Assembly: GCF_000285295.1 (NCBI RefSeq)
Contig: NZ_CADP01000001.1
Coordinates: 59,874 to 123,873, forward strand
Length of the DNA stretch: 64,000 nucleotides
Direction of reading: 5' to 3'
Origin: Komagataeibacter europaeus LMG 18890
GTDB lineage: Bacteria; Pseudomonadota; Alphaproteobacteria; Acetobacterales; Acetobacteraceae
Part shown: piece by piece, positions 1,823 through 38,309 of the stretch
Position numbering within the stretch: position 1 is the stretch's first letter
Layout: every line of letters begins with the position of its first letter
Program-made: the position numbers and the translations under genes
The notes under the pieces: model-generated
Databases searched by the model: none
Told to the model about the DNA's origin: nothing
The model's input: only the letters and a program-made list of their open reading frames with translations

Positions 1823-2689
1823 ATGGCCACCCCTCCCACCACACCGGTACGCCGTATACGACGCCTGAAAAAACGCCAGCGCCCCCGCGTCCGGGGCCTG
1901 TCGTTCAACCGGATGATCCCCAACCTGATGACCATGCTGGGCCTGTGCGCGGGCCTGACGGGCATGCGATTCGGGCTGGAGGGACGCTTTGGCAGCGCCG
2001 CCACCGCGCTGCTGATCGCCGCCTGCATTGACGGGCTGGATGGCCGCATTGCGCGCCTGCTGCGCGGCACGAGTCGTTTCGGGGCGGAATTCGACAGCCT
2101 GTCGGATTTCCTGTGCTTTGGCGTGGCCCCTGCTTTCGTGCTGTACCTGTGGGCACTGCATGAAGGTGGCCGTTTTGGCTACATCCCGTGCATCATGTTC
2201 ACGGTCTGCATGGCGCTGCGTCTGGCGCGGTTCAACGCCAGCCTCGATGACGACGCCAACCAGCCCAAATACGCCAGCAACTTCTTTACCGGCGTCCCGG
2301 CCCCCGCGGGCGCGGGGCTGGCGTTGTTCCCGCTCTTCCTGGGGCTGGAGGCGCAGCACCTGCATTGTGACTGGCTGTATGAACTGACGCGCGACCCGCT
2401 CCTGCCCGCGCTGACACTCAGCGGCACGGCCTTCCTGCTGGTCTCGACCCTGCCGGTCTGGTCATTCAAGAACTTCAAGGTCCCGTCCCCCATGATCCTG
2501 CCCACCATGCTGGGCACGGGGGCCTATGCCGCCGTTCTGGTGGCCGAACCGTGGGGCGCGCTTGCAGCCGCCGGGATCATCTACATCCTGCTGCTGCCCA
2601 TGAGCAGGCGGAGCTTCCACCGTCTGCGCCGCGAGGCCGAGGCCCTGCAGGAAAACGACGATCAGCCCCTGGCCTCGCCTTCGGCCTGA
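1823..2689 (+). CDS. pssA: CDP-diacylglycerol--serine O-phosphatidyltransferase
   Basis: Makes phosphatidylserine from CDP-diacylglycerol and L-serine, supplying the substrate of the upstream psd product. The 288-residue integral membrane protein carries the complete CDP-alcohol phosphotransferase signature: D73-G74-x2-A77-R78-x8-G87-x3-D91-x3-D95. A basic N-terminal extension (about residues 10-24, rich in Arg and Lys) precedes the first membrane helix. Several hydrophobic segments follow up to residue 260. The dispersed hairpin element at 2739 follows the gene. Confidence 0.96.
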   Translation: MATPPTTPVRRIRRLKKRQRPRVRGLSFNRMIPNLMTMLGLCAGLTGMRFGLEGRFGSAATALLIAACIDGLDGRIARLLRGTSRFGAEFDSLSDFLCFGVAPAFVLYLWALHEGGRFGYIPCIMFTVCMALRLARFNASLDDDANQPKYASNFFTGVPAPAGAGLALFPLFLGLEAQHLHCDWLYELTRDPLLPALTLSGTAFLLVSTLPVWSFKNFKVPSPMILPTMLGTGAYAAVLVAEPWGALAAAGIIYILLLPMSRRSFHRLRREAEALQENDDQPLASPSA

Positions 2690-2738
2690 TCGCCCGCCCC
2701 CCGTTCCCGGAGCAGCCAGCAGACCGATAAGCGTGTCT

Positions 2739-2808
2739 GGTGAAGCTTTTTAAAAAAGCTTCAGGGAACGCCGCCTTTTTGAAAAAAGAGTCGGCACCCG
2801 AAAACTTT
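2739..2808. repeat. dispersed double-hairpin intergenic element, copy 1
   Basis: About 70 bases that recur at 38241, 45106 and 59391. It contains two successive inverted repeats: AAGCTTTTT/AAAAAGCTT, then a CCGCCTTTTT...AAAAA arm whose right side is altered here (AGAGTCGG). It lies between the converging pssA and the hyfI-like gene and ends 14 bases before the minus-strand stop codon at 2823. The hairpins followed by A/T runs could act as a bidirectional terminator. Confidence 0.8.
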
Positions 2809-2822
2809 CGTCCTCTTTTATT

Positions 2823-3278
2823 TCATGCGGACAGTTCGTCTTCACCCTGCATGCGCCAGCGGATCAGGGCGTCAAGTATTTCCGCGGGCGACGGCGGGCA
2901 TCCCGGCAGCAGCAGGCTGGCCCGCGCACGACCCTCCACCCCGCCCAGCACCGCATAACTGGGCGTGAACACGCCCCCGTCCACCGCGCAATCCCCAACA
3001 GCGGCCAGCAGCCGCGTACCGGGCATGGCCTGCCACGCCAGTTCCACGACCGGGGCCATTTCCACCGTCAGGCTGCCGGTCACCAGCAGCAGGCCGGCCT
3101 GTCGCGGCGTGGACACGAAACGGATATCGGAATGCCCTTCCACCAATGCGCGCGACAGGCTGCGCAGTTCCAGCGCACAGCCGGTGCAGCCACCGGTTTC
3201 CATATGGAAGATGTCCAGCGGCAACATGCGGGGCAGCACCGTGCCTTCGGGCCAGAACAGGTTGAGATACGCCATCAT
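2823..3278 (-). CDS. HyfI/NuoB-like small subunit of an Ehr-type membrane complex
   Basis: A 151-residue homologue of the small subunit of group 4 membrane hydrogenases and of complex I NuoB. It keeps four cysteines for a proximal [4Fe-4S] cluster: C31 and C34 in GGCTGC, C97 in GDCAVDGG, and C127 in PGCPPS. The C-x2-C spacing is hydrogenase-like and differs from the tandem cysteines of NuoB. It would carry electrons next to the large subunit on the cytoplasmic face. It is the last gene of a six-gene run, and its start lies 6 bases past the stop of the large-subunit gene. Electron donor and acceptor are unknown. Confidence 0.88.
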   Translation of the reverse strand: MMAYLNLFWPEGTVLPRMLPLDIFHMETGGCTGCALELRSLSRALVEGHSDIRFVSTPRQAGLLLVTGSLTVEMAPVVELAWQAMPGTRLLAAVGDCAVDGGVFTPSYAVLGGVEGRARASLLLPGCPPSPAEILDALIRWRMQGEDELSA

Positions 3279-3284
3279 TCCTTC

Positions 3285-4760
3285 CTACAGGTCGGCCGAT
3301 GCCGCCGACAGGCCGAGGGAGGCAAGGATCAGTGGCACATCCTCATACATCGCGCCGGATAACACCTGTGGCAGCGCCTGAAACAGCAGCAGGGCCGGAT
3401 CGCCACACCACCACGCGGCCACCCGGCCATTTTCAACACGTAGCCAGTGCCAGACCGGCCCGGCCGGTCCTTCGGCACAGCCAATCCCTTCGCCTGATCC
3501 ATATTCACCCACGGGTGGTGCCGTAAGGGCGACCGCATCCAGCGTGGACAGGATTTCCACCGCCGTTTCGACCTCATGCAGCCGCAGCGCAAGCCGGGCG
3601 GTCACATCGCCCGCCATTGCGCGGGAGCCATCCGGCCATACTGCGGGCGGGCGCGATCCGTAGGGTCCGGGATCGGATTCAACACCACCGGCCCGTCCCA
3701 CGCATCCGGCGATCCCCCAGTGACCAGCCACGTCCGCCCGCAGGATACCCCGCCCCCGCGCCTGCATCGCCATGCCACGCGGCCGCCAGAACAGGCGCCG
3801 CAGCGCCGTGCAGCCCGCGCGCAGTTCCGCCAGCAGTTCAGCGGGAAGGGACATTACCCGTTCATTCCCGCCCGCGGGCGGCAGCACGTCAAACAGCAGG
3901 CGACTGCCGCACATATCCCGACAGGCCTGCCGCACCCGTTCCAGCAGGGTTGCCGCAAGAATGACGAAACGCCGGTCTGCCAGCAGCTCGGCGGCAACGG
4001 CCAGCGTATCCAGATGGGCCATGATGCGCCCGAGTTCCCCCACGAACAGGGCCGCATCGTGCATGCCTCCGGCGCCATTGCCTTCCATCACCGCCAGCGC
4101 GTCGGCAAAGGCCTGCTGGTGGGCAACCGTGGCCGTTGCATCAATCCGGGCCACCAGTCGTGCGGCCTGCGCCACGGTCGCCCCCCGCATGCGCGCGCAC
4201 AGGCCACGATGGGCGTAGCCCATGCGGGAGTGCACCTGCATGATCCGCTCCCCAGGCACGCCTAGACGCAGGTGAAAGGGCGCGTTGAAATCCCCCTCCG
4301 CCGGGCCATGGCCCAGCACGGTGCCACCGGCCTGCACGATGGTTGCATCATCGATGAATTCCACGCCCTCGGGCGGCGCAGGGGCTGGCGGGGGGCGGTC
4401 ACGCAGGGGCCATGTCACCGGCCATCGTCCCTGGTCCAGCCACGGGGCGCTGGCTGTCGCCCCCATGGCCTCGATCCCCCACAGATCCTGCATGATGCGT
4501 TCAGACGCACTGGCCCCGGCCCGCGCCGGGGACAGGGCAAGGTAGCGCCCGTCCGTGACCGCGACACTCGCCATCAGCGGACGCGTTCCCTCCATGAACA
4601 GGGCATGCACCTGCCCCCCGTCCGACCACAGGCCAAGAAGCGGCAGGGCGGAATGGGACAGGGCCGCCGCCATGTCACGCCACCCCTGTTCATCCAGCAC
4701 GAAACGCCCGGGACAGGCGGCAGGCGTGCCGCTGCGGATCAGGTCAGCCACCTGCGTCAT
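3285..4760 (-). CDS. HyfG/NuoCD-like large subunit lacking NiFe ligands
   Basis: A 491-residue relative of the group 4 hydrogenase large subunit and of NuoC-NuoD. Residues 1-130 resemble a degenerate NuoC-like domain and the rest a NuoD/HyfG domain. HRG is at 184-186. Where hydrogenases have RxCGxC this protein reads R205-I-D-A-T-A, and the C-terminus (DVPLILASLGLS, no cysteine) lacks the DPCxxC motif. It cannot bind a NiFe centre in the usual way, which matches the Ehr class. I chose the ATG at 4760, which overlaps the upstream stop codon by one base (TGATG). The frame stays open upstream, but that part overlaps the hyfF-like gene. Confidence 0.87.
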   Translation of the reverse strand: MTQVADLIRSGTPAACPGRFVLDEQGWRDMAAALSHSALPLLGLWSDGGQVHALFMEGTRPLMASVAVTDGRYLALSPARAGASASERIMQDLWGIEAMGATASAPWLDQGRWPVTWPLRDRPPPAPAPPEGVEFIDDATIVQAGGTVLGHGPAEGDFNAPFHLRLGVPGERIMQVHSRMGYAHRGLCARMRGATVAQAARLVARIDATATVAHQQAFADALAVMEGNGAGGMHDAALFVGELGRIMAHLDTLAVAAELLADRRFVILAATLLERVRQACRDMCGSRLLFDVLPPAGGNERVMSLPAELLAELRAGCTALRRLFWRPRGMAMQARGRGILRADVAGHWGIAGCVGRAGGVESDPGPYGSRPPAVWPDGSRAMAGDVTARLALRLHEVETAVEILSTLDAVALTAPPVGEYGSGEGIGCAEGPAGPVWHWLRVENGRVAAWWCGDPALLLFQALPQVLSGAMYEDVPLILASLGLSAASADL

Positions 4761-5833
4761 CACCACCCGTTTCCCATCTGGTAATATGCAGCACAGGCAA
4801 GCACCATGCACCCGATGGCCAGCAACAGCGACGCCTGCCCCCATTCTGACCTGTCATGCCCTGCCCCCATGCGTGCCGCCATGACTGGCCACAGGCTGGC
4901 GCCAGCCAGCAGTGCCACGGGGGGAATTTCCCCCATTTCCCCCACCAGTACCAACACGACCGCCATGCCGGGCAGGGAGGGCGGCCACAACATGGATCCC
5001 GACAGCCGGCCACCCCATGGCGTGATACAGGCCATGACCAGCAGGCAGGCGGCAAGTGGCAGCCCCCCCATGGCACCACCCGGCAGCCCCGCAGCCAGCA
5101 CGGCCCAGCCAGCCCAGTACCCCGCCGGAAAGGATCGTCCCTGCCGCGACAGGACCGCCCATGCCAGGCACACGCACCCCATGAAGGTCAGCGCAGGCAA
5201 CAGGACCGGCCAGGTACGGGCCGCCTGCGCCAGAACCGGCAGGACGGCCAGTATTTCCATGTTCCAGCCCGGCGCAACCAACCCCGCACGACCCGGAACG
5301 CCACAGGCCAGCAGCAGTCCGCCCACCAGCAGGATCGCCCCGGCCTGATCCTGCACGTGCCCCCAACCCGCCTGCAGCATGAACAGGCCACCCTGCGCCA
5401 CAAGCAGGCCACCCAGCCCCATGCGCAGCGCCTGCCACCCGTCCCGCTCCAGCCCGCGCGGCCCGATCGCCAGTCCAAGCCGCGCCACCAGTCCGCAACC
5501 CAGAAAGGCCCCAAGCAGGTCACACCGGCCGAACGCGTTGGCAAGGACGGCAATGCCGGACAGGAAAAAGGGCAGCACCTCCCTTTCACGCGGGGTGACC
5601 CCATCGCCGCGGCGCGGCCCGAAAACCCACACGCACAATGCCAGCGCGGGGCCACATCCCGTCAGGATCCGCGCCATATCGGGGGAGGGGCCGCTGCCCA
5701 TGCCACACAGGACCAGCAGCAGCACAGCCAGCAGGCCACGCAACGCCAGCGCCCCGCCCGTCACCAGCACGGCGGTCAGGGCCAGCACCATCCAGCCGCC
5801 CAGCAGGCTGGCGTAAAGCGACGGCGCCATCAT
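4760..5833 (-). CDS. HyfF-like antiporter-family membrane subunit, short
   Basis: A 357-residue, almost entirely hydrophobic protein in the position where hyf-type operons encode the second MrpA/D-like (NuoL/M/N-like) subunit. I count roughly 10-12 possible membrane segments. It is shorter than the about 480-residue HyfF and I cannot point to the canonical transmembrane lysines. WNMEILAVLPVLAQA and GLVAPGWNMEILAVL are the most recognisable blocks. The start is the first of two adjacent ATGs (5833), which overlaps the hyfE-like stop by four bases (ATGA). Assignment rests mostly on operon position. Confidence 0.7.
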   Translation of the reverse strand: MMAPSLYASLLGGWMVLALTAVLVTGGALALRGLLAVLLLVLCGMGSGPSPDMARILTGCGPALALCVWVFGPRRGDGVTPREREVLPFFLSGIAVLANAFGRCDLLGAFLGCGLVARLGLAIGPRGLERDGWQALRMGLGGLLVAQGGLFMLQAGWGHVQDQAGAILLVGGLLLACGVPGRAGLVAPGWNMEILAVLPVLAQAARTWPVLLPALTFMGCVCLAWAVLSRQGRSFPAGYWAGWAVLAAGLPGGAMGGLPLAACLLVMACITPWGGRLSGSMLWPPSLPGMAVVLVLVGEMGEIPPVALLAGASLWPVMAARMGAGHDRSEWGQASLLLAIGCMVLACAAYYQMGNGW

Positions 5834-6375
5834 GCCGCCCCGCCATGCGACCGGGGATGCGTGGCCAGCAGGATGTTCAGGCCGATCGCCGCCATAATCA
5901 CCTCCGCCATGACCAGCATGCTGTCCGCCCGCGCCGCCAGCAGCATGACGCCATCCAGCCCGCAGGCCAGCCCCGCGCACAATGCGACCGGCCCGCGGGC
6001 GATACACGCCCCCCACACGCCGCACAGGATGGCGGAAAGCCCCGTCATGCCCATAAGGCGCGCCGTCATGTCCACCTGTGGTCCCTGCATGACGGCCTGC
6101 GCCAGCACCGCGATACAGGCCAGCCCGCCTGCAAGGCGCAGGCCGCTGCGTTCCCGCCCCGCCGCGGGGATATGCAGCATCTGCGCGCCCAGCACCCCCA
6201 GTAGTCCCGCCAGCCCCACCGCCATGACACATGCCGGCCCGACCTGCCCCTGGGTCCAGCGCGACAGGCACACGCATGCAGCCATGCACGCGCCATGCCA
6301 GACCGGGCCGCCACCCCGTCCCCCCGACGTTGAAAGCGAAAGAATGACCAGAACGCCAAACAGCAGCACCAGCAT
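5830..6375 (-). CDS. HyfE-like membrane subunit
   Basis: A 181-residue hydrophobic protein in the HyfE position. It resembles the NuoK/HyfE type of small subunit, with about six membrane segments and a charged loop near residue 72 (AAGRERSG). Part of the helix near the C-terminus (ADSMLVMAEVIMAAIGLNIL) looks like NuoK, which has a conserved membrane glutamate; here Glu is in VMAEVI. The ATG at 6375 lies 2 bases after the hyfC-like stop. The longer open frame upstream (to 6570) is not credible because it overlaps hyfC. Confidence 0.72.
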   Translation of the reverse strand: MLVLLFGVLVILSLSTSGGRGGGPVWHGACMAACVCLSRWTQGQVGPACVMAVGLAGLLGVLGAQMLHIPAAGRERSGLRLAGGLACIAVLAQAVMQGPQVDMTARLMGMTGLSAILCGVWGACIARGPVALCAGLACGLDGVMLLAARADSMLVMAEVIMAAIGLNILLATHPRSHGGAA

Positions 6376-6377
6376 GG

Positions 6378-7346
6378 TCAGCCCATCCCCCGTCCGGCAA
6401 ACAGCAGCACCCCGGCCATGACGGCGCACAGCAGCGCCAGCCCCGCCCGCCAGCCCGCATGCCGCTGCCCCGACACCATGAAAACCCGTATCGCCGCGAC
6501 ACATCCGCATGCCAGCAGCATATGCACCGCCCACAGCGCGACCGCAGCCAGCATGGGCACCAGCACCCACGCACGCGGCAGGATATCGGGTTCCACAATG
6601 CCTTCGGGCCAGATCAGGTCACGCGCCAGCATCATCCACACCACCGCCAGCAGGTCACGCGCGTACTGGGCCACGGCACGGTCGGGACCGGCAAGATCCT
6701 CCAGCATGGCCGAGGACAGCCGTGATGTCGTGCCGTCCCCTTCCCCGACCCCCGCGACGACCAGCGCACCGGCCACCAGCGCCAGCGGCACGCGCACAAG
6801 GTTCATGTCCGCCACATGCGCCTGCCGCACCAGTCCCGCCAGCGTGCCATCGGGCAGGCACATGCCCAGCACGGCGCAGGCCAGCAGCATGACCGGCTGG
6901 ATCATGATCCCCCCGGCCACGACCCGCAGCCCCACATGGCCCGGCCGCGCCAGGCCCGGCGCAAGGGCGGCCACCACCAGCGCGAGGAAGGCCATTTCCA
7001 GCAATCCGCCGATAACCAGCACATCCGACAGGTCGCCACCGGGCATGCCAATGGAAAAGGATGGCACCAGCAATACCGCCACCATGCCCGCGGCCAACGC
7101 CAGCCAGGGGGCAACCGCCGTCACCTGCGCGCCAGCCGCCGAACGCACGCCCACCTGCCGCCATGCATGCAGCAGGGTGCGCCAGTGCGCGGTCGGGTCC
7201 GGCAGGCGGCGTTCGCCCTCCATCACCGCGGCCATCCAGCGCAGCAGCCCGATCCATACGGGTACCGTCACCATGACCAGTGCCATGTGACAGCCAGCCA
7301 GCAGAAGCGCCTGCATCCGCGCAGCAATGGAAAATGACGTCATCAT
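6378..7346 (-). CDS. HyfC/NuoH-like membrane subunit
   Basis: A 322-residue membrane protein of the NuoH/HyfC family, the subunit that joins the membrane arm to the large/small subunit pair. About eight hydrophobic segments are visible. The cytoplasmic loop at about residues 214-231 (MLEDLAGPDRAVAQYARD) corresponds to the acidic loop of NuoH/HycD proteins (E-x-E.. G-Y family motif). WPEGIVEPDILPR near 247-259 resembles the C-terminal loop of the family. The stop codon lies 2 bases before the hyfE-like start. It is one of the better recognisable subunits of this operon. Confidence 0.82.
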   Translation of the reverse strand: MMTSFSIAARMQALLLAGCHMALVMVTVPVWIGLLRWMAAVMEGERRLPDPTAHWRTLLHAWRQVGVRSAAGAQVTAVAPWLALAAGMVAVLLVPSFSIGMPGGDLSDVLVIGGLLEMAFLALVVAALAPGLARPGHVGLRVVAGGIMIQPVMLLACAVLGMCLPDGTLAGLVRQAHVADMNLVRVPLALVAGALVVAGVGEGDGTTSRLSSAMLEDLAGPDRAVAQYARDLLAVVWMMLARDLIWPEGIVEPDILPRAWVLVPMLAAVALWAVHMLLACGCVAAIRVFMVSGQRHAGWRAGLALLCAVMAGVLLFAGRGMG

Positions 7347-7352
7347 GCGGCC

Positions 7353-9128
7353 TTACCCATGCCACGCGATGAATATCAGCGCCGCCATGCACGCCATGGC
7401 CATCACCACCGGCGCGGATGCCATGACGCCACCCGGCCGCAGGTCATCCACGTATCGCGCCAGCAGCGGCCATGACCGACCCATCCGCCGCCGCAGGCGC
7501 ACGTAATCACGCAGGCACCGCCGGCGCATCGCGGGCATCACCACCATGTCCAGCAGCATGCGCGCGGGATTGCCCGGCCCCACCTGCGTCAGCGGGTCGC
7601 CAAACACCATCCACGGCGGGACGGGGGGCGCGCCCTGCCGCCAGCCCGCGACCTGACGGGCGGGCGTGGGACAGGCCATGCGCCGCAACACCACGACCAC
7701 GCCCCCCACCAGGGCCACCAGCAGGCACAGCCGCGCAGGATGCAGCAACGCCGCGCCATCGGGCGAGGCCAGTGCGACATTGTCCACCAGCGGCCACGTC
7801 ATGCCACCCGGCCCATGGCCCGCCACCAGCCCGAGCCAGTATCCCGGCCAGATGGAGGCACACAGCACCGGCAGCACCGCCAGCAGCAACGTCGCCATTT
7901 CCCACCCCGACGGATCGGACGCCCCGGCACCGCGCGGGGTGCGCGGCCTGCCACACAGCATGACCGCGACAATGCGCACGAGTGCAAGCATACGCACCGC
8001 CCACCCCACCCCCAACGCCAGAAGCGCCAGCAGCAGCGGCAGGTCCGCCCCCAGCCCACCACCACGCGGCATGGCCGCCAGCAGGTGCAGCAGCATCCAG
8101 ATAATGGAAAAGCCCAGCAGGGGCGGCAGCCCGCTTTCCGCCAGAAGCCCGATGGAAAACAGGGCCGACAGGCGCGGCATCAGCACGCCCAGCCCCCCCA
8201 GGCGACACAGCACGAGGGCACCGGCCTCGCGCTCCATCGCATCCATGGCACGCGCCATGAACATCCATGTCAGCAGCGTGCCCACAACCAGCATGAACGT
8301 GCGGCTGGCGCATGTGGCCATGGCGGGCAGGTCATCGGCGCGGGCCAGCAGGCCCAGCCCGGCCAGCACGATCACCAGCGCACCCGTGCCCCCCAGCAGT
8401 CCCGTCATGACCCTGCGCCCGTCGCCCGCGCACAGCGCCCGCCACGACGCCGTCATGTACAGCAGGCAGCCCGCCACGATCAGCACGCCACCCCAGCGCA
8501 TGTCCGCCACCATGCCACCGGCAGGCAGGCGCCCCCACAGCGCCATGGCGGCGACCATCGCGGCGATATCGGCCATATGGAAGGAACGCAGCCCGCGCGG
8601 CGACACGCGCGGGGAAAAGGAAAGGCCCAGCAGCCCACGCGTGGCCAGCCAGCACAGTCCGGGCAGCAGCCAGCCCGCATGGGCCGGAAACACCAGCACC
8701 GCCACCATGAGCAGCAGGGCAATCAGGTCAGGCGCCTGTCGCACGTCCATGCGTGGCATATCGTCATGCGGGACGCGCGCGATCAGCACCCATCCCGCCC
8801 CGATGCAGGACAGGACCGGCCCACCAATCACCGCAAGGGCCGCGCCGGCACAGGCCGCAAGGTCGCGACCACGGGATGCCGCAAACCCCACGATACCCAG
8901 CGGCACCAGCAGGGCGATATCATGCGTATCATTTGAAAAACCGGCCCATGGCGCCCCCCCGCCGGGCAACGCGACCCCAAGGCAGGACAGGACGGCCATG
9001 ACGCCCATGGCCAGCCACCCGCCGCGCAGGACGGGCACCATTCCCGCAGCCGACCGTGGCCAGCAGACCGGCAGGATCCCTGCCGCCCCCACCAGCAATA
9101 CGGTTACGACAAGGATGACAGGAATGAT
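7353..9128 (-). CDS. HyfB/NuoL-like antiporter-family membrane subunit; start uncertain
   Basis: At least 581 residues with many membrane helices. Numbering from TTG 9098, residues 300-330 (LGGLGVLMP ... GLPPLLGF) match the LGGL..MP...GLPPL.GF block of NuoL/MrpA-type subunits. Where these proteins usually have HxFFK, residues 263-270 read CASRTFML, without the lysine. No ATG or GTG opens the frame at a sensible place. A Shine-Dalgarno GGAGG at 9139-9135 stands 6 bases before an in-frame ATC (9128) and 9 before ATT (9125), and the codons between encode a hydrophobic helix (VIIPVILVVTVLLVGAA). TTG 9098 has no such site. I give 9128 as the likely outer limit. First gene of the Ehr operon, downstream of the aldo/keto reductase. 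Confidence 0.78.
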   Translation of the reverse strand: MIPVILVVTVLLVGAAGILPVCWPRSAAGMVPVLRGGWLAMGVMAVLSCLGVALPGGGAPWAGFSNDTHDIALLVPLGIVGFAASRGRDLAACAGAALAVIGGPVLSCIGAGWVLIARVPHDDMPRMDVRQAPDLIALLLMVAVLVFPAHAGWLLPGLCWLATRGLLGLSFSPRVSPRGLRSFHMADIAAMVAAMALWGRLPAGGMVADMRWGGVLIVAGCLLYMTASWRALCAGDGRRVMTGLLGGTGALVIVLAGLGLLARADDLPAMATCASRTFMLVVGTLLTWMFMARAMDAMEREAGALVLCRLGGLGVLMPRLSALFSIGLLAESGLPPLLGFSIIWMLLHLLAAMPRGGGLGADLPLLLALLALGVGWAVRMLALVRIVAVMLCGRPRTPRGAGASDPSGWEMATLLLAVLPVLCASIWPGYWLGLVAGHGPGGMTWPLVDNVALASPDGAALLHPARLCLLVALVGGVVVVLRRMACPTPARQVAGWRQGAPPVPPWMVFGDPLTQVGPGNPARMLLDMVVMPAMRRRCLRDYVRLRRRMGRSWPLLARYVDDLRPGGVMASAPVVMAMACMAALIFIAWHG

Positions 9129-9165
9129 GACGGCCCTCCGGCATGCGCCCGGCAGGCCGGGCGGG

Positions 9166-10017
9166 TCAGATCATGGCCAGCGGCTCCTTGCGGCGCGGCG
9201 GCGCTATGGCTTCATCAATCTCCGCCAGATCATCGCGCGTCAAGGTGATCTCGGTCGCGGCAAGGTTTTCGTGCTGGTGGCGCGGGCTGCCCGCCTTGGG
9301 AATGGCCAGCACGTTTTCCTGCCGCAGCACCCATGCCAGCGCGATCTGCGCCGTGGAGGCCGGCCCGAGGGACGTCGTATGCCGCTGCGCGATACGTTTC
9401 AGCACAGGCGCGCGCAGCAGGTCGCCCCCCTGCCCCAGCGGGGAATAGGCCATTGTCACGATGCCCGCGTCCCGGTCACGCTGCAGCAGGTCGAATTCCA
9501 CGCCACGGTAATCAAGGCTGTACAGCACCTGATTGGCGGCACAGGGCGTGCTGGCCGGTGTGCTTTCGACTTCACGCATACCATCGGCGTCGAAGTTGGA
9601 CACACCCCAGCTACGGATCATGCCTGCGTCAATCAGGTCATCGAATCCGGCCAGCGTTTCCGCCAGCGGCACGCTGCCGGGCCAGTGCAGCAGGTAGAGG
9701 TCAAGATGGTCGGTGCCCAGACGCTTCAGTGACGCGGCACATGCCTTGCGCACGCCATCGCGCGATGCGTTGGAGGGAACGACCTTGCTGACAAGGAACA
9801 CGTCGTCGCGCCGCCCGCGTATTGCCTCACCCACCAGTTTTTCGGAACGGCCGGAGCCATACATTTCCGCCGTGTCCACCACGCGGATACCCGCGTCGAG
9901 ACCCGCATGGATGCTTTTGATTTCATCCGCGCGGCGGCTGTCGCTGTCCCCCATGTTCCATGTGCCCATGCCCAGCGCGGGCACCGTTGTACCATTGGGG
10001 AAAGTAACCGTCTTCAT
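9166..10017 (-). CDS. aldo/keto reductase
   Basis: NADPH-dependent reductase of the AKR superfamily, 283 residues, cytoplasmic. The catalytic tetrad is visible as D48, Y53, K78 and H111 (VVDTAEMYG, FLVSKVV, YLLHWPG). The start is the ATG at 10017; the frame continues upstream but MKTVTFPNGT is the natural N-terminus. The substrate cannot be read from the sequence; close relatives reduce 2,5-diketo-gluconate or small aldehydes. It lies between holC and the Ehr operon on the same strand with short gaps, so co-transcription is possible. Confidence 0.92.
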   Translation of the reverse strand: MKTVTFPNGTTVPALGMGTWNMGDSDSRRADEIKSIHAGLDAGIRVVDTAEMYGSGRSEKLVGEAIRGRRDDVFLVSKVVPSNASRDGVRKACAASLKRLGTDHLDLYLLHWPGSVPLAETLAGFDDLIDAGMIRSWGVSNFDADGMREVESTPASTPCAANQVLYSLDYRGVEFDLLQRDRDAGIVTMAYSPLGQGGDLLRAPVLKRIAQRHTTSLGPASTAQIALAWVLRQENVLAIPKAGSPRHQHENLAATEITLTRDDLAEIDEAIAPPRRKEPLAMI

Positions 10018-10070
10018 TACGCAACCTGCCTTTCGTCCATGCCATCCCCCTGCCATGGCGGACAGGGGAA

Positions 10071-10517
10071 CTATTTACGACGCGCCCAGCCCTTGGGCTG
10101 CTGTTGCCAATAGCTCAGTTCATGGCTGCCTTCGCGCCATGCCACCCAGCGTTTGCGCGCAGCCGTGACGGCGGCTTCATCATGACCATCAAACAGGTCG
10201 AACACCCGTTCGAAAGGGGAAAGGTCGGGGACTTCCACCCCGTCCAGCAGGAAGGCGAAAGTGGCGCCATTGGGCACGTCCCCGCCTTCCGTCAGCCAGA
10301 TCGGCTGCCACTGCCCATGCCCCATGGCCTGCGTGCCATGGGGAAGCCATAGCGGGTCGGTCGCCCGCCACAGCCCGTCATCCAGTTCCTGCACCCGCTG
10401 CGCTGTCGCGCAGCGGACCACGGCCCGCTTGCCCGCCGCCAGCGTGCGGCCCAGCAGCGCGGGCAGGACCGCCAGCGCCGGTGAACGCGTCAGGTGATAG
10501 AAGCCGATCTGCGCCAT
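10071..10517 (-). CDS. holC: DNA polymerase III chi subunit
   Basis: A 148-residue HolC, the clamp-loader accessory subunit that contacts SSB at the fork. Diagnostic features are the N-terminus MAQIGFYHLTR, the central W-x-P-x-W-L-x-E segment near residue 72 (WQPIWLTEGGDVPNGA), and the C-terminal FDLFDGHDEAAVTAARKRW. A tail of about 12 basic residues (QQQPKGWARRK) follows. It sits 42 bases downstream of pepA, the same pepA-holC order as in many proteobacteria. Confidence 0.92.
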   Translation of the reverse strand: MAQIGFYHLTRSPALAVLPALLGRTLAAGKRAVVRCATAQRVQELDDGLWRATDPLWLPHGTQAMGHGQWQPIWLTEGGDVPNGATFAFLLDGVEVPDLSPFERVFDLFDGHDEAAVTAARKRWVAWREGSHELSYWQQQPKGWARRK

Positions 10518-10559: not shown

Positions 10560-12035
10560 TTACCCTTCGTAATACATGCCGACCATGCGATCGAGCAGGC
10601 GCACGCCAAAGCCGGTCGCCCCCCGGGGCGCGTGCGATGTCGGCTTGGATGTAAACGCCGTGCCTGCGATGTCCAGATGCGCCCACGGCACATCGTTCAC
10701 GAAGCATTCAAGGAACTTGGCCGCCGTGATCGACCCGCCGGGACGGCCACCGATGTTCTTGAGGTCGGCGATGTCCGACCGCAGCAGTTCAAGGTAGGCT
10801 GCGTCCATGGGCATGCGCCACAGCTTCTCGCCCGTCTGTTCCCCCGTGGCCGACAGATGGCCCGCCAGTGCGTCATTGTTGGAGAACAGGCCCGCGCGCT
10901 CGATGCCCAGGCTGACAACGATCGCCCCGGTCAGGGTCGCGAGGTTGACCATGAAACGCGGCCTGAAGCGGTCCTGCGTGTACCACAGCACGTCAGCCAG
11001 CACGAGACGGCCTTCGGCATCGGTGTTCAGCACCTCCACCGTCTGGCCTGCAGCCGTGCGCACCACGTCGCCCGGACGCTGCGCATTGCCCGACAGCATG
11101 TTTTCCACCAGCCCCACGACACCGACGGCGTTCACCTTCGCCTTGCGGCCCGCCAGCGCCGCCATGGTGCCGACCACGGCGGCGGCACCGGCCATGTCGG
11201 TCTTCATTTCGTCCATGCCGGCGGCGGGCTTGATCGAGATGCCGCCCGAATCAAAGGTCACGCCCTTGCCAACGAAGGCCACCGGGGCATCGCCCTGCGC
11301 ACCACCATTCCAGCGCATGATGACCGTGCGCGGCGGCGCGTCACTGCCCTGCGCCACACCCAGCAGCGCGCCGAAGCCCAGCTTGTGCATGGCGTCGCGG
11401 TCCAGCACCTCGACCTCCACCCCAAGGTCACGCAGGGCGAGGATGCGCTGTTCGAATTCCGGCGGGCGCAGCATGTTCGCGGGTTCGGATACAAGGTCGC
11501 GGCACAGGCAGACACCGCGCGCCACCGCCGAAAGCGGCTGCCATGCCGTGCGCGCATGTGCGGGATCGGCACAGGCCACGCTCACGTCCGTCAGCGGTCC
11601 TGCATCGCCCTTGCGCGGCTGGGTACGGTACGAATCGAAACGGTAGCTGCCCAGCACGACGCCCAGCGCCACATGGGCGGCCAGGTCGGGGGCCACCGTA
11701 TCCGCCACCACCACGCCGGCCGTTCCCGCATCGGACAGGCCGCGCGCGGCCGCGACACCTGCCTGTTCGGCCACGGTGGCATCCAGCGCATCCACCTTGC
11801 CCAGCCCCACCAGGACCACGCGGTCATAACCAGCGCCGGGGGCAAGCACGACGCAGGTCTTCGCGGCGTCGAAACCGAATTTTGCGGCCTTTGCCGCACG
11901 GGTCAGCGCGCCACCCACCGCCGCGTCCAGCGCAGCGAAGGCCCCCGCGGGCGCGCCGGGGGCGGCAAGGATGGCAATGGTGCCGCTGGTGGGCAGGCTT
12001 GCATCGGAAAAGGCGATATCGAGCATATGGATCAC
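10560..12035 (-). CDS. pepA: leucyl aminopeptidase (M17)
   Basis: Two-metal cytosolic aminopeptidase that releases N-terminal residues; some family members also bind DNA. The 491-residue protein has the M17 motifs VGKGVTFDSGGISIKP, MKTDMAGAAAV and the signature NTDAEGRLVLAD, which hold the metal ligands. GTG 12035 and ATG 12026 are both possible starts. A GGAG lies 4 bases before the GTG, while the ATG gives the more usual N-terminus MLDIAF. holC follows. The gap to cysQ (12036-12178) must carry two divergent promoters. Confidence 0.96.
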   Translation of the reverse strand: MIHMLDIAFSDASLPTSGTIAILAAPGAPAGAFAALDAAVGGALTRAAKAAKFGFDAAKTCVVLAPGAGYDRVVLVGLGKVDALDATVAEQAGVAAARGLSDAGTAGVVVADTVAPDLAAHVALGVVLGSYRFDSYRTQPRKGDAGPLTDVSVACADPAHARTAWQPLSAVARGVCLCRDLVSEPANMLRPPEFEQRILALRDLGVEVEVLDRDAMHKLGFGALLGVAQGSDAPPRTVIMRWNGGAQGDAPVAFVGKGVTFDSGGISIKPAAGMDEMKTDMAGAAAVVGTMAALAGRKAKVNAVGVVGLVENMLSGNAQRPGDVVRTAAGQTVEVLNTDAEGRLVLADVLWYTQDRFRPRFMVNLATLTGAIVVSLGIERAGLFSNNDALAGHLSATGEQTGEKLWRMPMDAAYLELLRSDIADLKNIGGRPGGSITAAKFLECFVNDVPWAHLDIAGTAFTSKPTSHAPRGATGFGVRLLDRMVGMYYEG

Positions 12036-38240: not shown

Positions 38241-38309
38241 GGTGAGGCTTTTTTCAAAAAGCTTAAGGGAACGCCGCCTTTTTGAAAAAAGGCGGCACCC
38301 GGAAACTTT
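38241..38309. repeat. dispersed double-hairpin intergenic element, copy 2
   Basis: The best preserved copy. The first hairpin is GCTTTTTT/AAAAAGC; the second is CCGCCTTTTT...AAAAAAGGCGG with a short loop. It ends 2 bases before the stop codon of upp (minus strand, TAA at 38314-38312). It also faces the ilvA terminator, so the gap between these convergent genes is almost filled by two terminator-like structures. Confidence 0.88.

Follow-up and report, generated by a model that had tools for sequence, protein, structure and literature searches.

A six-gene Ehr-type complex of Komagataeibacter europaeus without the scored ion-pumping residues, and its tentative reading as a membrane-anchored Fe-S redox module

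The DNA analysed in this study, hereafter called the window, is a stretch of 64,000 nucleotides from Komagataeibacter europaeus LMG 18890 (contig NZ_CADP01000001.1, positions 59,874 to 123,873). It harbors an operon, hyfB-C-E-F-G-I, for a relative of hydrogenase 4 of the nickel-less Ehr type. Comparison with related loci showed that the residues of the ion-pumping machinery have been lost, and the complex is very probably not a canonical ion pump. These losses, the retained cysteines of the small subunit HyfI, the residue network of HyfG and HyfI, and purifying selection on the genes are all read from gene sequences. From them we infer, tentatively, an Ehr-type, pump-lost, non-energy-conserving and membrane-anchored Fe-S redox module.

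Loss of the pumping residues in HyfB, HyfF and HyfC

The six genes are located on the minus strand between 2823 and about 9125, and neighbouring genes overlap or are at most 6 bases apart (gaps of 6 bases between I and G, 2 between E and C and 6 between C and B; overlaps of 1 base between G and F and 4 between F and E). An initial annotation had described six packed genes in this order, and coordinates and spacing bear it out. The same genes occur in the same order in loci of other species; therefore, the arrangement in the window is not due to chance. The genes and the evidence (E-values) for their assignment are:

2823..3278, minus strand: HyfI, small subunit, 151 amino acids (aa); Pfam PF01058 at 1.8e-21, alignment
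3285..4760, minus strand: HyfG, large subunit, 491 aa, with 30 kDa-like and 49 kDa-like regions; PF00346 at 5.7e-10, PF00329 at just 0.23
4760..5833, minus strand: HyfF remnant, 357 aa; gene position and a chain of profiles
5830..6375, minus strand: HyfE-like protein, 181 aa, with Asp in place of Glu in the 'ENG' motif; alignment and profile chain
6378..7346, minus strand: HyfC/NuoH-like membrane anchor, 322 aa; profile of pump-competent HyfC at 3e-24
7353..9125, minus strand: HyfB, antiporter-like subunit, about 590 aa; NCBIfam hydrogenase 4 subunit B at 1.4e-12, below its cut-off

When the proteins of the window were compared with Pfam, HyfI and HyfG were recognised, HyfB matched Proton_antipo_M at 5e-4, which is below the cut-off, and HyfF, HyfE and HyfC gave no match. 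In the pump-competent control locus L058, HyfF and HyfB matched Proton_antipo_M at 2e-42 and 3e-41 and HyfC matched NADHdh at 8e-31. By a chain of profiles, HyfB (7e-30) and HyfC (3e-24) were linked directly to pump-competent relatives, and HyfF and HyfE were linked stepwise by way of intermediates. The final step of the HyfF chain, to Komagataeibacter, ranged from 5e-11 (L044) to 0.6 (L031), with 2e-5 for the window. Profile searches of the PDB with HyfF and HyfB gave no match. A Foldseek search with a model of HyfF placed antiporter subunits of complex I on top (6x89, 4he8, 7p63), along with unrelated proteins.

For the comparison, 79 loci were examined, comprising 74 from the family, the window included, and five plasmid references. 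HyfB was found in 71 of them, HyfC in 72, HyfF in 73, HyfE in 57, HyfG in 79 and HyfI in 74. The pump residues were scored against HyfB, HyfF and HyfC of E. coli, and 13 positions were counted. Pump-kept rows show Glu, Lys, Lys, His, Lys and Glu in HyfB, Glu, Lys, His, Lys and Glu in HyfF, and three Glu in HyfC. None of the 13 proton-path residues is kept in the window. The same holds for the 10 other Komagataeibacter loci with complete hyfB, hyfF and hyfC and for every Komagataeibacter row with data, and 24 rows of the same family keep 13/13. Among the 74 family rows, 35 retain 0-2 of the residues, 26 retain all or all but one of those scored, seven are between these states or gapped, and six have fewer than eight positions.

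The antiporter-like subunits of the window lack the expected set of Glu in transmembrane helix (TM) 5, Lys in TM7/TM8, His/Lys in TM11 and Lys/Glu in TM12. HyfF has no lysine at all and no TM5 Glu, TM7 Lys, TM11 His/Lys or TM12 Glu; pump-competent family rows have 476-489 aa, and HyfF of the window, at 357 aa, has lost about 125 residues. In HyfC, the glutamate (E-channel) motif is mostly deleted or replaced. A second list of residues, taken from the paper on the structure of the E. coli formate hydrogenlyase (FHL; PMC9474812), gave the same picture. Of the 26 pump-kept rows, 24 to 26 have HycC Lys239, His332, Lys336 and Glu391 of this list, none of which is present in the window. For HycD, 23 to 25 of the 25 pump-kept rows retain Glu130, Glu138, Glu206 and Arg108, in place of which the window has V142, Q150, S212 and F120. 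Among pump-lost rows, thinned of 10 Komagataeibacter rows for counts of conserved columns, no charged column conserved to at least 85% was found in HyfF (21 rows) or HyfC (25 rows), and three were found in HyfB (D70, R203 and R388; 23 rows).

The states of the subunits largely coincide. If a subunit counts as kept with at least half of its residues, HyfB, HyfF, HyfC and the His of the large subunit are jointly kept in 32 rows and jointly lost in 30, and three of the 65 rows are mixed (plasmid references included, rows lacking a subunit left out). Loss or retention across the subunits is thus joint in 62/65 rows. In the intermediates L091, L093 and L107, part of the pump set is lost. L107 has kept the pump glutamates, and its lysines are replaced by Thr, Asn or His; this row may be at the beginning of pump loss, or its sequence may simply be odd.

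An alignment-free count agreed with this. The six proteins of the window contain no lysine in 2,092 aa, compared to 2.20% in 16,897 residues of other, mechanically chosen open reading frames (ORFs) of the window; L031, L045, L046 and L047 are likewise free of lysine. At similar G+C contents, the membrane subunits contain 0-9 lysines in pump-lost rows (0.64-0.73) versus 13-23 in pump-kept rows (0.64-0.75). Lysine depletion as a specific adaptation was considered and rejected: the soluble subunits are almost free of lysine too, and AT-rich pump-lost rows carry many lysines. The loss reads as drift of composition once the need for lysine had ended.

The initial annotation had proposed that the complex moves ions. 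The loss of 13/13 scored residues, the absence of lysine and the shortening of HyfF by about 125 residues speak against this proposal. The loss was not visible from the window by itself, because relatives are needed to see which pump residues are gone.

Nickel site, iron-sulfur cluster, phylogeny and selection

In HyfI, the four cysteines C31, C34, C97 and C127, which the initial annotation had already recognised, align with the ligand set of an N2/proximal-type [4Fe-4S] cluster. Cys is found at every covered position in 68/69 family rows, nine of which are cut at locus ends. A HyfI-like match was present in each of 20 genomes searched (five of them already examined earlier); at the 20 loci, all four cysteines were found in 15 and one in three, and two were read out of frame. 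In G001, G008 and G037, the HyfI-like match and HyfG are on different contigs. Genome G062 (locus L145) may contain two complexes of this kind, because its top HyfI match, similar to the Methylovirgula type, is found about 1.9 Mb away from the gene for pump-lost HyfG. L100 (G011) has HyfG and HyfI of the pump-kept type, and hyfB, C, E and F were not recognisable within its 9-kb stretch.

At the four nickel-cysteine positions of HycE, HyfG has D207, A210, S485 and S488, so that all four are non-Cys, as had been noticed before. Across the family, these columns contain no Cys in 73/74 rows and one Cys in the remaining row. HyfG of the window keeps His249, Arg356 and Glu396, and the corresponding positions (HycE His284, Arg395 and Glu437) are retained in 31, 33 and 32 of 35 pump-lost rows. 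HyfG of E. coli K-12 (L064, 10488-12155) lacks about 16 residues of HycE, including the equivalent of the conserved Arg395. The canopy Asp and the His/acid of the beta1-beta2 loop are missing in the window; the canopy residue (HycE Asp529) is lost in 33/35 pump-lost rows, and Arg478 is retained in 11/35. Profile searches of the PDB with HyfG matched Mbh, HycE of FHL and Nqo4. A model of HyfG, with a predicted local distance difference test (pLDDT) value of 60, matched the fold of HycE at 2.3e-14, as the sequence had already indicated.

The phylogeny of HyfG and HyfI that had been proposed as a check was calculated from 88 rows by a quick search with no bootstrap. It separated one clade of nickel-less complexes (81 rows) from Hyf, Hyc, Ech and Nuo (seven rows) with a support of 100 in the Shimodaira-Hasegawa-like approximate likelihood ratio test. 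The window groups with other complexes of six genes and no nickel ligands, separate from complex I and from true Hyf/Hyc/Ech. Subunit homology, missing ligands and tree position thus confirm the assignment as an Ehr-type relative of hydrogenase 4 with no NiFe centre, where the label Ehr of the reference rows was assigned by missing ligands and not by a curated Ehr reference set. On this tree, which is independent of the scored pump columns, the state changed twice for HyfB, twice for HyfF, four times for HyfC and four times for the His of the large subunit. The main pump-lost clade (38 rows, support 91) does not include L083 and L090, which suggests a second loss of the pump. In a tree of 30 rows calculated without a mixture model, these two join this clade (support 74/31), so the second change of HyfB and HyfF hangs on an unstable placement.

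The named relatives in Komagataeibacter comprise 13 loci, with small subunits 70-98% identical, and the gene order is the same in Acetobacteraceae loci. Free-standing operons of this order occur on plasmids of Rhizobium, Methylovirgula, Bradyrhizobium, Azospirillum (hyfE not annotated) and Burkholderiales. True FHL-type operons with nickel cysteines and maturation genes were found in Rhodovastum (Acetobacteraceae) and Azospirillum sp. B510. At E <= 0.001, HyfG of the window matched 268/299 family genomes and HyfG of L063 matched 288/299; these are upper bounds, as NuoD of complex I is included in many genomes. In the genome of the window (given as 99.99% complete), no match was found for the NiFe large subunit (PF00374), HypD or HycI, and there is thus no visible route to a mature NiFe hydrogenase. 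The lack of maturation genes, claimed from the window, therefore extends genome-wide for HypD and HycI; other Hyp proteins were not searched. The genome encodes two further NuoD-type genes, and complex I is therefore probably present.

Between the window and seven Komagataeibacter loci, the ratios of nonsynonymous to synonymous substitutions (dN/dS, simple Nei-Gojobori counts) of the six hyf genes were 0.11-0.55, lowest for HyfI and HyfC and highest for HyfF. All six frames are open in complete Komagataeibacter loci, and no internal stop occurs in any of the genomic matches listed for HyfG of the window. By these counts, the genes are under purifying selection. In the pump-lost clade, with Komagataeibacter rows thinned, 55 columns of HyfG are conserved to at least 85%, compared to 29 of HyfI, 23 of HyfB, 12 of HyfF and nine of HyfC.

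Possible functions of the reduced complex

The proposed course of events would start from a pump-competent six-gene complex, of which the pumping machinery of HyfB, HyfF and HyfC would have been lost and HyfE reduced. The surviving part would be a membrane-anchored HyfG-HyfI module with one [4Fe-4S] cluster, which may pass or sense electrons and would store no energy. The membrane subunits would serve as anchor and assembly platform, and the electron partner (a dehydrogenase, a carrier or a quinone) would be encoded outside the operon.

Several observations weigh against this reading. It draws on gene sequences, and no electron donor stands out among the neighbour genes of the 30 loci compared, nor is there a linked partner gene. 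Since the canopy Asp (HycE D529) and the His/acid of the beta1-beta2 loop are gone, no hydrogenase or quinone chemistry is visible. The assignment of HyfF and HyfE as putative homologues of pump subunits relies on gene position and the profile chain: pump-lost and pump-kept HyfF showed no significant similarity when their profiles were compared directly (E 0.074), the HyfF model has a pLDDT of 54 from 13 sequences, and its Foldseek matches, mostly complex I antiporter subunits, have E-values of 0.05 or worse, none reaching 0.001. The position of HycD Glu189 is still Glu in the window (E202) and in 12/35 pump-lost rows, and that of HycD Glu211 is Asp (D217) in HyfC of the window. Within the genus, HyfC is constrained about as much as HyfI; because of this constraint and the retained acidic positions, free drift is too simple a description of the membrane arm. 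The neighbours psd, the pssA-like gene, pepA and the aldo/keto reductase (AKR) gene show dN/dS of 0.02-0.27, and the hyf genes are higher. Finally, HyfI lacks three of the four cluster cysteines in all three genomes of genus g100 (L147, L148 and L149). Because HyfG nevertheless stays constrained there, an electron-carrying cluster is not essential everywhere.

The last observation leads to a second explanation, a non-redox pseudoenzyme or scaffold for binding or regulation, for example in membrane protein assembly or partner docking, in which the cluster would be merely structural. The complex of g100 remains under purifying selection (dN/dS is 0.29-0.44 for HyfI and, in the last 447 codons of HyfG, 0.10-0.14), and the loss of pump and catalytic residues would also fit. 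However, an unused cluster site should erode more widely than is seen in 68/69 rows with intact cysteines at the covered positions. This explanation is rather unlikely, and mainly the cysteine loss in g100 gives it the weight it has.

A slowly decaying relic with no function is improbable. Fast divergence of the membrane subunits across the family, the shortened HyfF, dN/dS above that of the neighbours and long branches in the pump-lost clade would agree with decay. Against it stand the open frames in complete Komagataeibacter loci, the absence of internal stops from HyfG, dN/dS well below 1 for every gene, the occurrence of HyfG and HyfI even in genomes of about 2 Mb and the conserved order of the locus.

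Cluster catalysis as in MBS of Pyrococcus, whose proximal cluster serves as the reductase after loss of the Ni site (PMC7684303), would let the proximal [4Fe-4S] cluster reduce a small molecule in the former active-site pocket. More conserved columns in HyfG and HyfI than in the membrane subunits of the pump-lost clade would fit such a role. According to the same source, MBS possesses pump-competent subunits and MbsN, which is linked to ferredoxin, both of them missing here, and the CxxC spacing of HyfI is associated with full ligation in MBH; this explanation is very improbable. That the complex still pumps ions, as first proposed, is hardly credible in spite of the gene set shared with pump-competent Ehr complexes, the three conserved charged columns in HyfB and the two acidic positions in HyfC, as all 13 scored Lys/Glu/His are lost, the E-channel motif is mostly gone and lysine is absent.

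The redox module thus remains the preferred, if tentative, reading. It is possible, with more reservation, that the complex is kept in acetic acid bacteria for a non-energy-converting job, as a membrane redox sensor or assembly scaffold. It would then be a pseudoenzyme as a whole, which has given up nickel catalysis, quinone chemistry and pumping, in one genus probably also the Fe-S cluster, and which has a conserved AUU start in Komagataeibacter.

If this is true, one family offers a natural series: the pump residues are kept in 26 family rows and in the references from Rhizobiales and Azospirillum, lost in part in L091, L093 and L107 and lost in 35 rows, including Komagataeibacter. Such a series would allow testing which complex I-type parts serve redox work, assembly or pumping, and would raise the question of what use a respiratory-type complex has that is no longer able to conserve energy. 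It would also call for caution when such operons of vinegar and cellulose bacteria are annotated as hydrogenase 4 or as energy-converting.

Start of hyfB, surroundings and comparison with known systems

Further features adjoin the operon:

9135..9139, minus strand: Shine-Dalgarno site GGAGG of hyfB, 9 nt ahead of ATT and 6 nt ahead of the preceding ATC
9166..10056, minus strand: AKR gene immediately upstream of hyfB, 40-nt gap; identified by Pfam, order conserved in other loci
10071..10517 and 10560..12035, minus strand: holC, then pepA, upstream of the AKR gene; order conserved in other loci
2766..2788, plus strand: conserved 23-mer, part of a dispersed repeat and located between hyfI and a convergent pssA-like gene

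No ATG, GTG or TTG with a Shine-Dalgarno site was found for hyfB of the window, and the best start is ATT at 9125-9123. Of the operon end formerly set at 9139, the gene itself stands, with its probable start at 9125, and 9139 is the edge of the Shine-Dalgarno site. In 11/11 Komagataeibacter loci with complete hyfB, the window included, ATT occupies the identical place behind a Shine-Dalgarno-like site (GGAGG in nine, AAGG in two). No ATG, GTG or TTG with such a site lies near the start in these 11 loci, save a GTG well inside the gene in L035. An ATC one codon before the ATT is almost equally well placed in 9/11 loci. The sequences suggest that translation probably starts at AUU in Komagataeibacter. 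AUU starts are rare and discriminated against by initiation factor IF3. The claim is confined to this genus, because most other rows have no comparable signal; outside it, single ATT/ATC candidates were seen in L047, L048, L050 and L052.

With gaps of about 40 nt or less, the AKR gene, holC and pepA may be cotranscribed with the hyf genes, which would then come last in a longer transcription unit. Flanks were compared for 30 loci, just three of them (L058-L060) fully pump-competent; in many of the 30, the same three genes recur upstream and pssA/psd recur downstream. In L059, one ORF of the cluster lies opposite pepA. The repeat sits directly downstream of hyfI, as had been described for a dispersed hairpin element at the end of the operon. 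Its 23-mer is identical at 2766-2788 and 38269-38291, with no such pair in 100 shuffles. The core GAACGCCGCCTTTTTGAAAAA (21 bases) has 103 matches in the genome at <= 2 mismatches (50 forward and 53 reverse, some overlapping), and its reversed control has none. Rfam gave nothing at gathering thresholds in 2650-9300.

Compared to Hyf and Hyc of E. coli, subunits B, C, E, F, G and I are homologous and in matching relative order. Unlike there, the operon lacks HyfA, D, H, J and R, the NiFe ligands and the scored pump residues, and the genome gave no match for HypD or HycI. Complex I (NuoB, C/D, H, K, L/M/N) belongs to the same superfamily and also has no NiFe ligands. It differs in that the column of the quinone-site His of NuoD is Glu in the window and the Tyr is not conserved; the operon has no NuoE/F/G/I partners, and the complex forms a separate clade. 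According to PMC7684303, MBS of Pyrococcus furiosus is a complex I relative with no working NiFe site and with the proximal cluster kept, but, unlike the complex of the window, it retains two pump subunits and additional clusters that receive electrons from ferredoxin.

Close counterparts are six-gene Hyf-type (Ehr) complexes without nickel ligands, found in Rhizobium, Bradyrhizobium, Methylovirgula and Azospirillum and on Burkholderiales plasmids. They share the order B-C-E-F-G-I, the lack of HyfA/HyfH in the operon, the absence of nickel cysteines and one clade with the window. The HyfI cysteines are present in the five plasmid-type complexes checked; HyfE of Azospirillum thermophilum is not annotated. 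Unlike the window, two Rhizobium complexes and those of Methylovirgula, Bradyrhizobium and Azospirillum keep 13/13 pump residues and the His of the large subunit; the Burkholderiales rows lie outside this scoring. The four Rhizobiales complexes have a helix-turn-helix gene ahead of hyfB, and the window differs from the plasmid type in its shorter HyfF and probable AUU start.

In PMC6349859, Ehr complexes are described as suspected charge translocators, and formate dehydrogenase is the partner proposed for that of Riflemargulisbacteria. The window shares the antiporter-like subunits with them by homology, but its pump residues are lost and no formate dehydrogenase gene is linked. Neither a pump-dead Ehr complex nor this operon in acetic acid bacteria was described among the matches listed in the open literature (title and start of abstract; subscription papers mostly outside). 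Ehr complexes as such are already known from PMC6349859.

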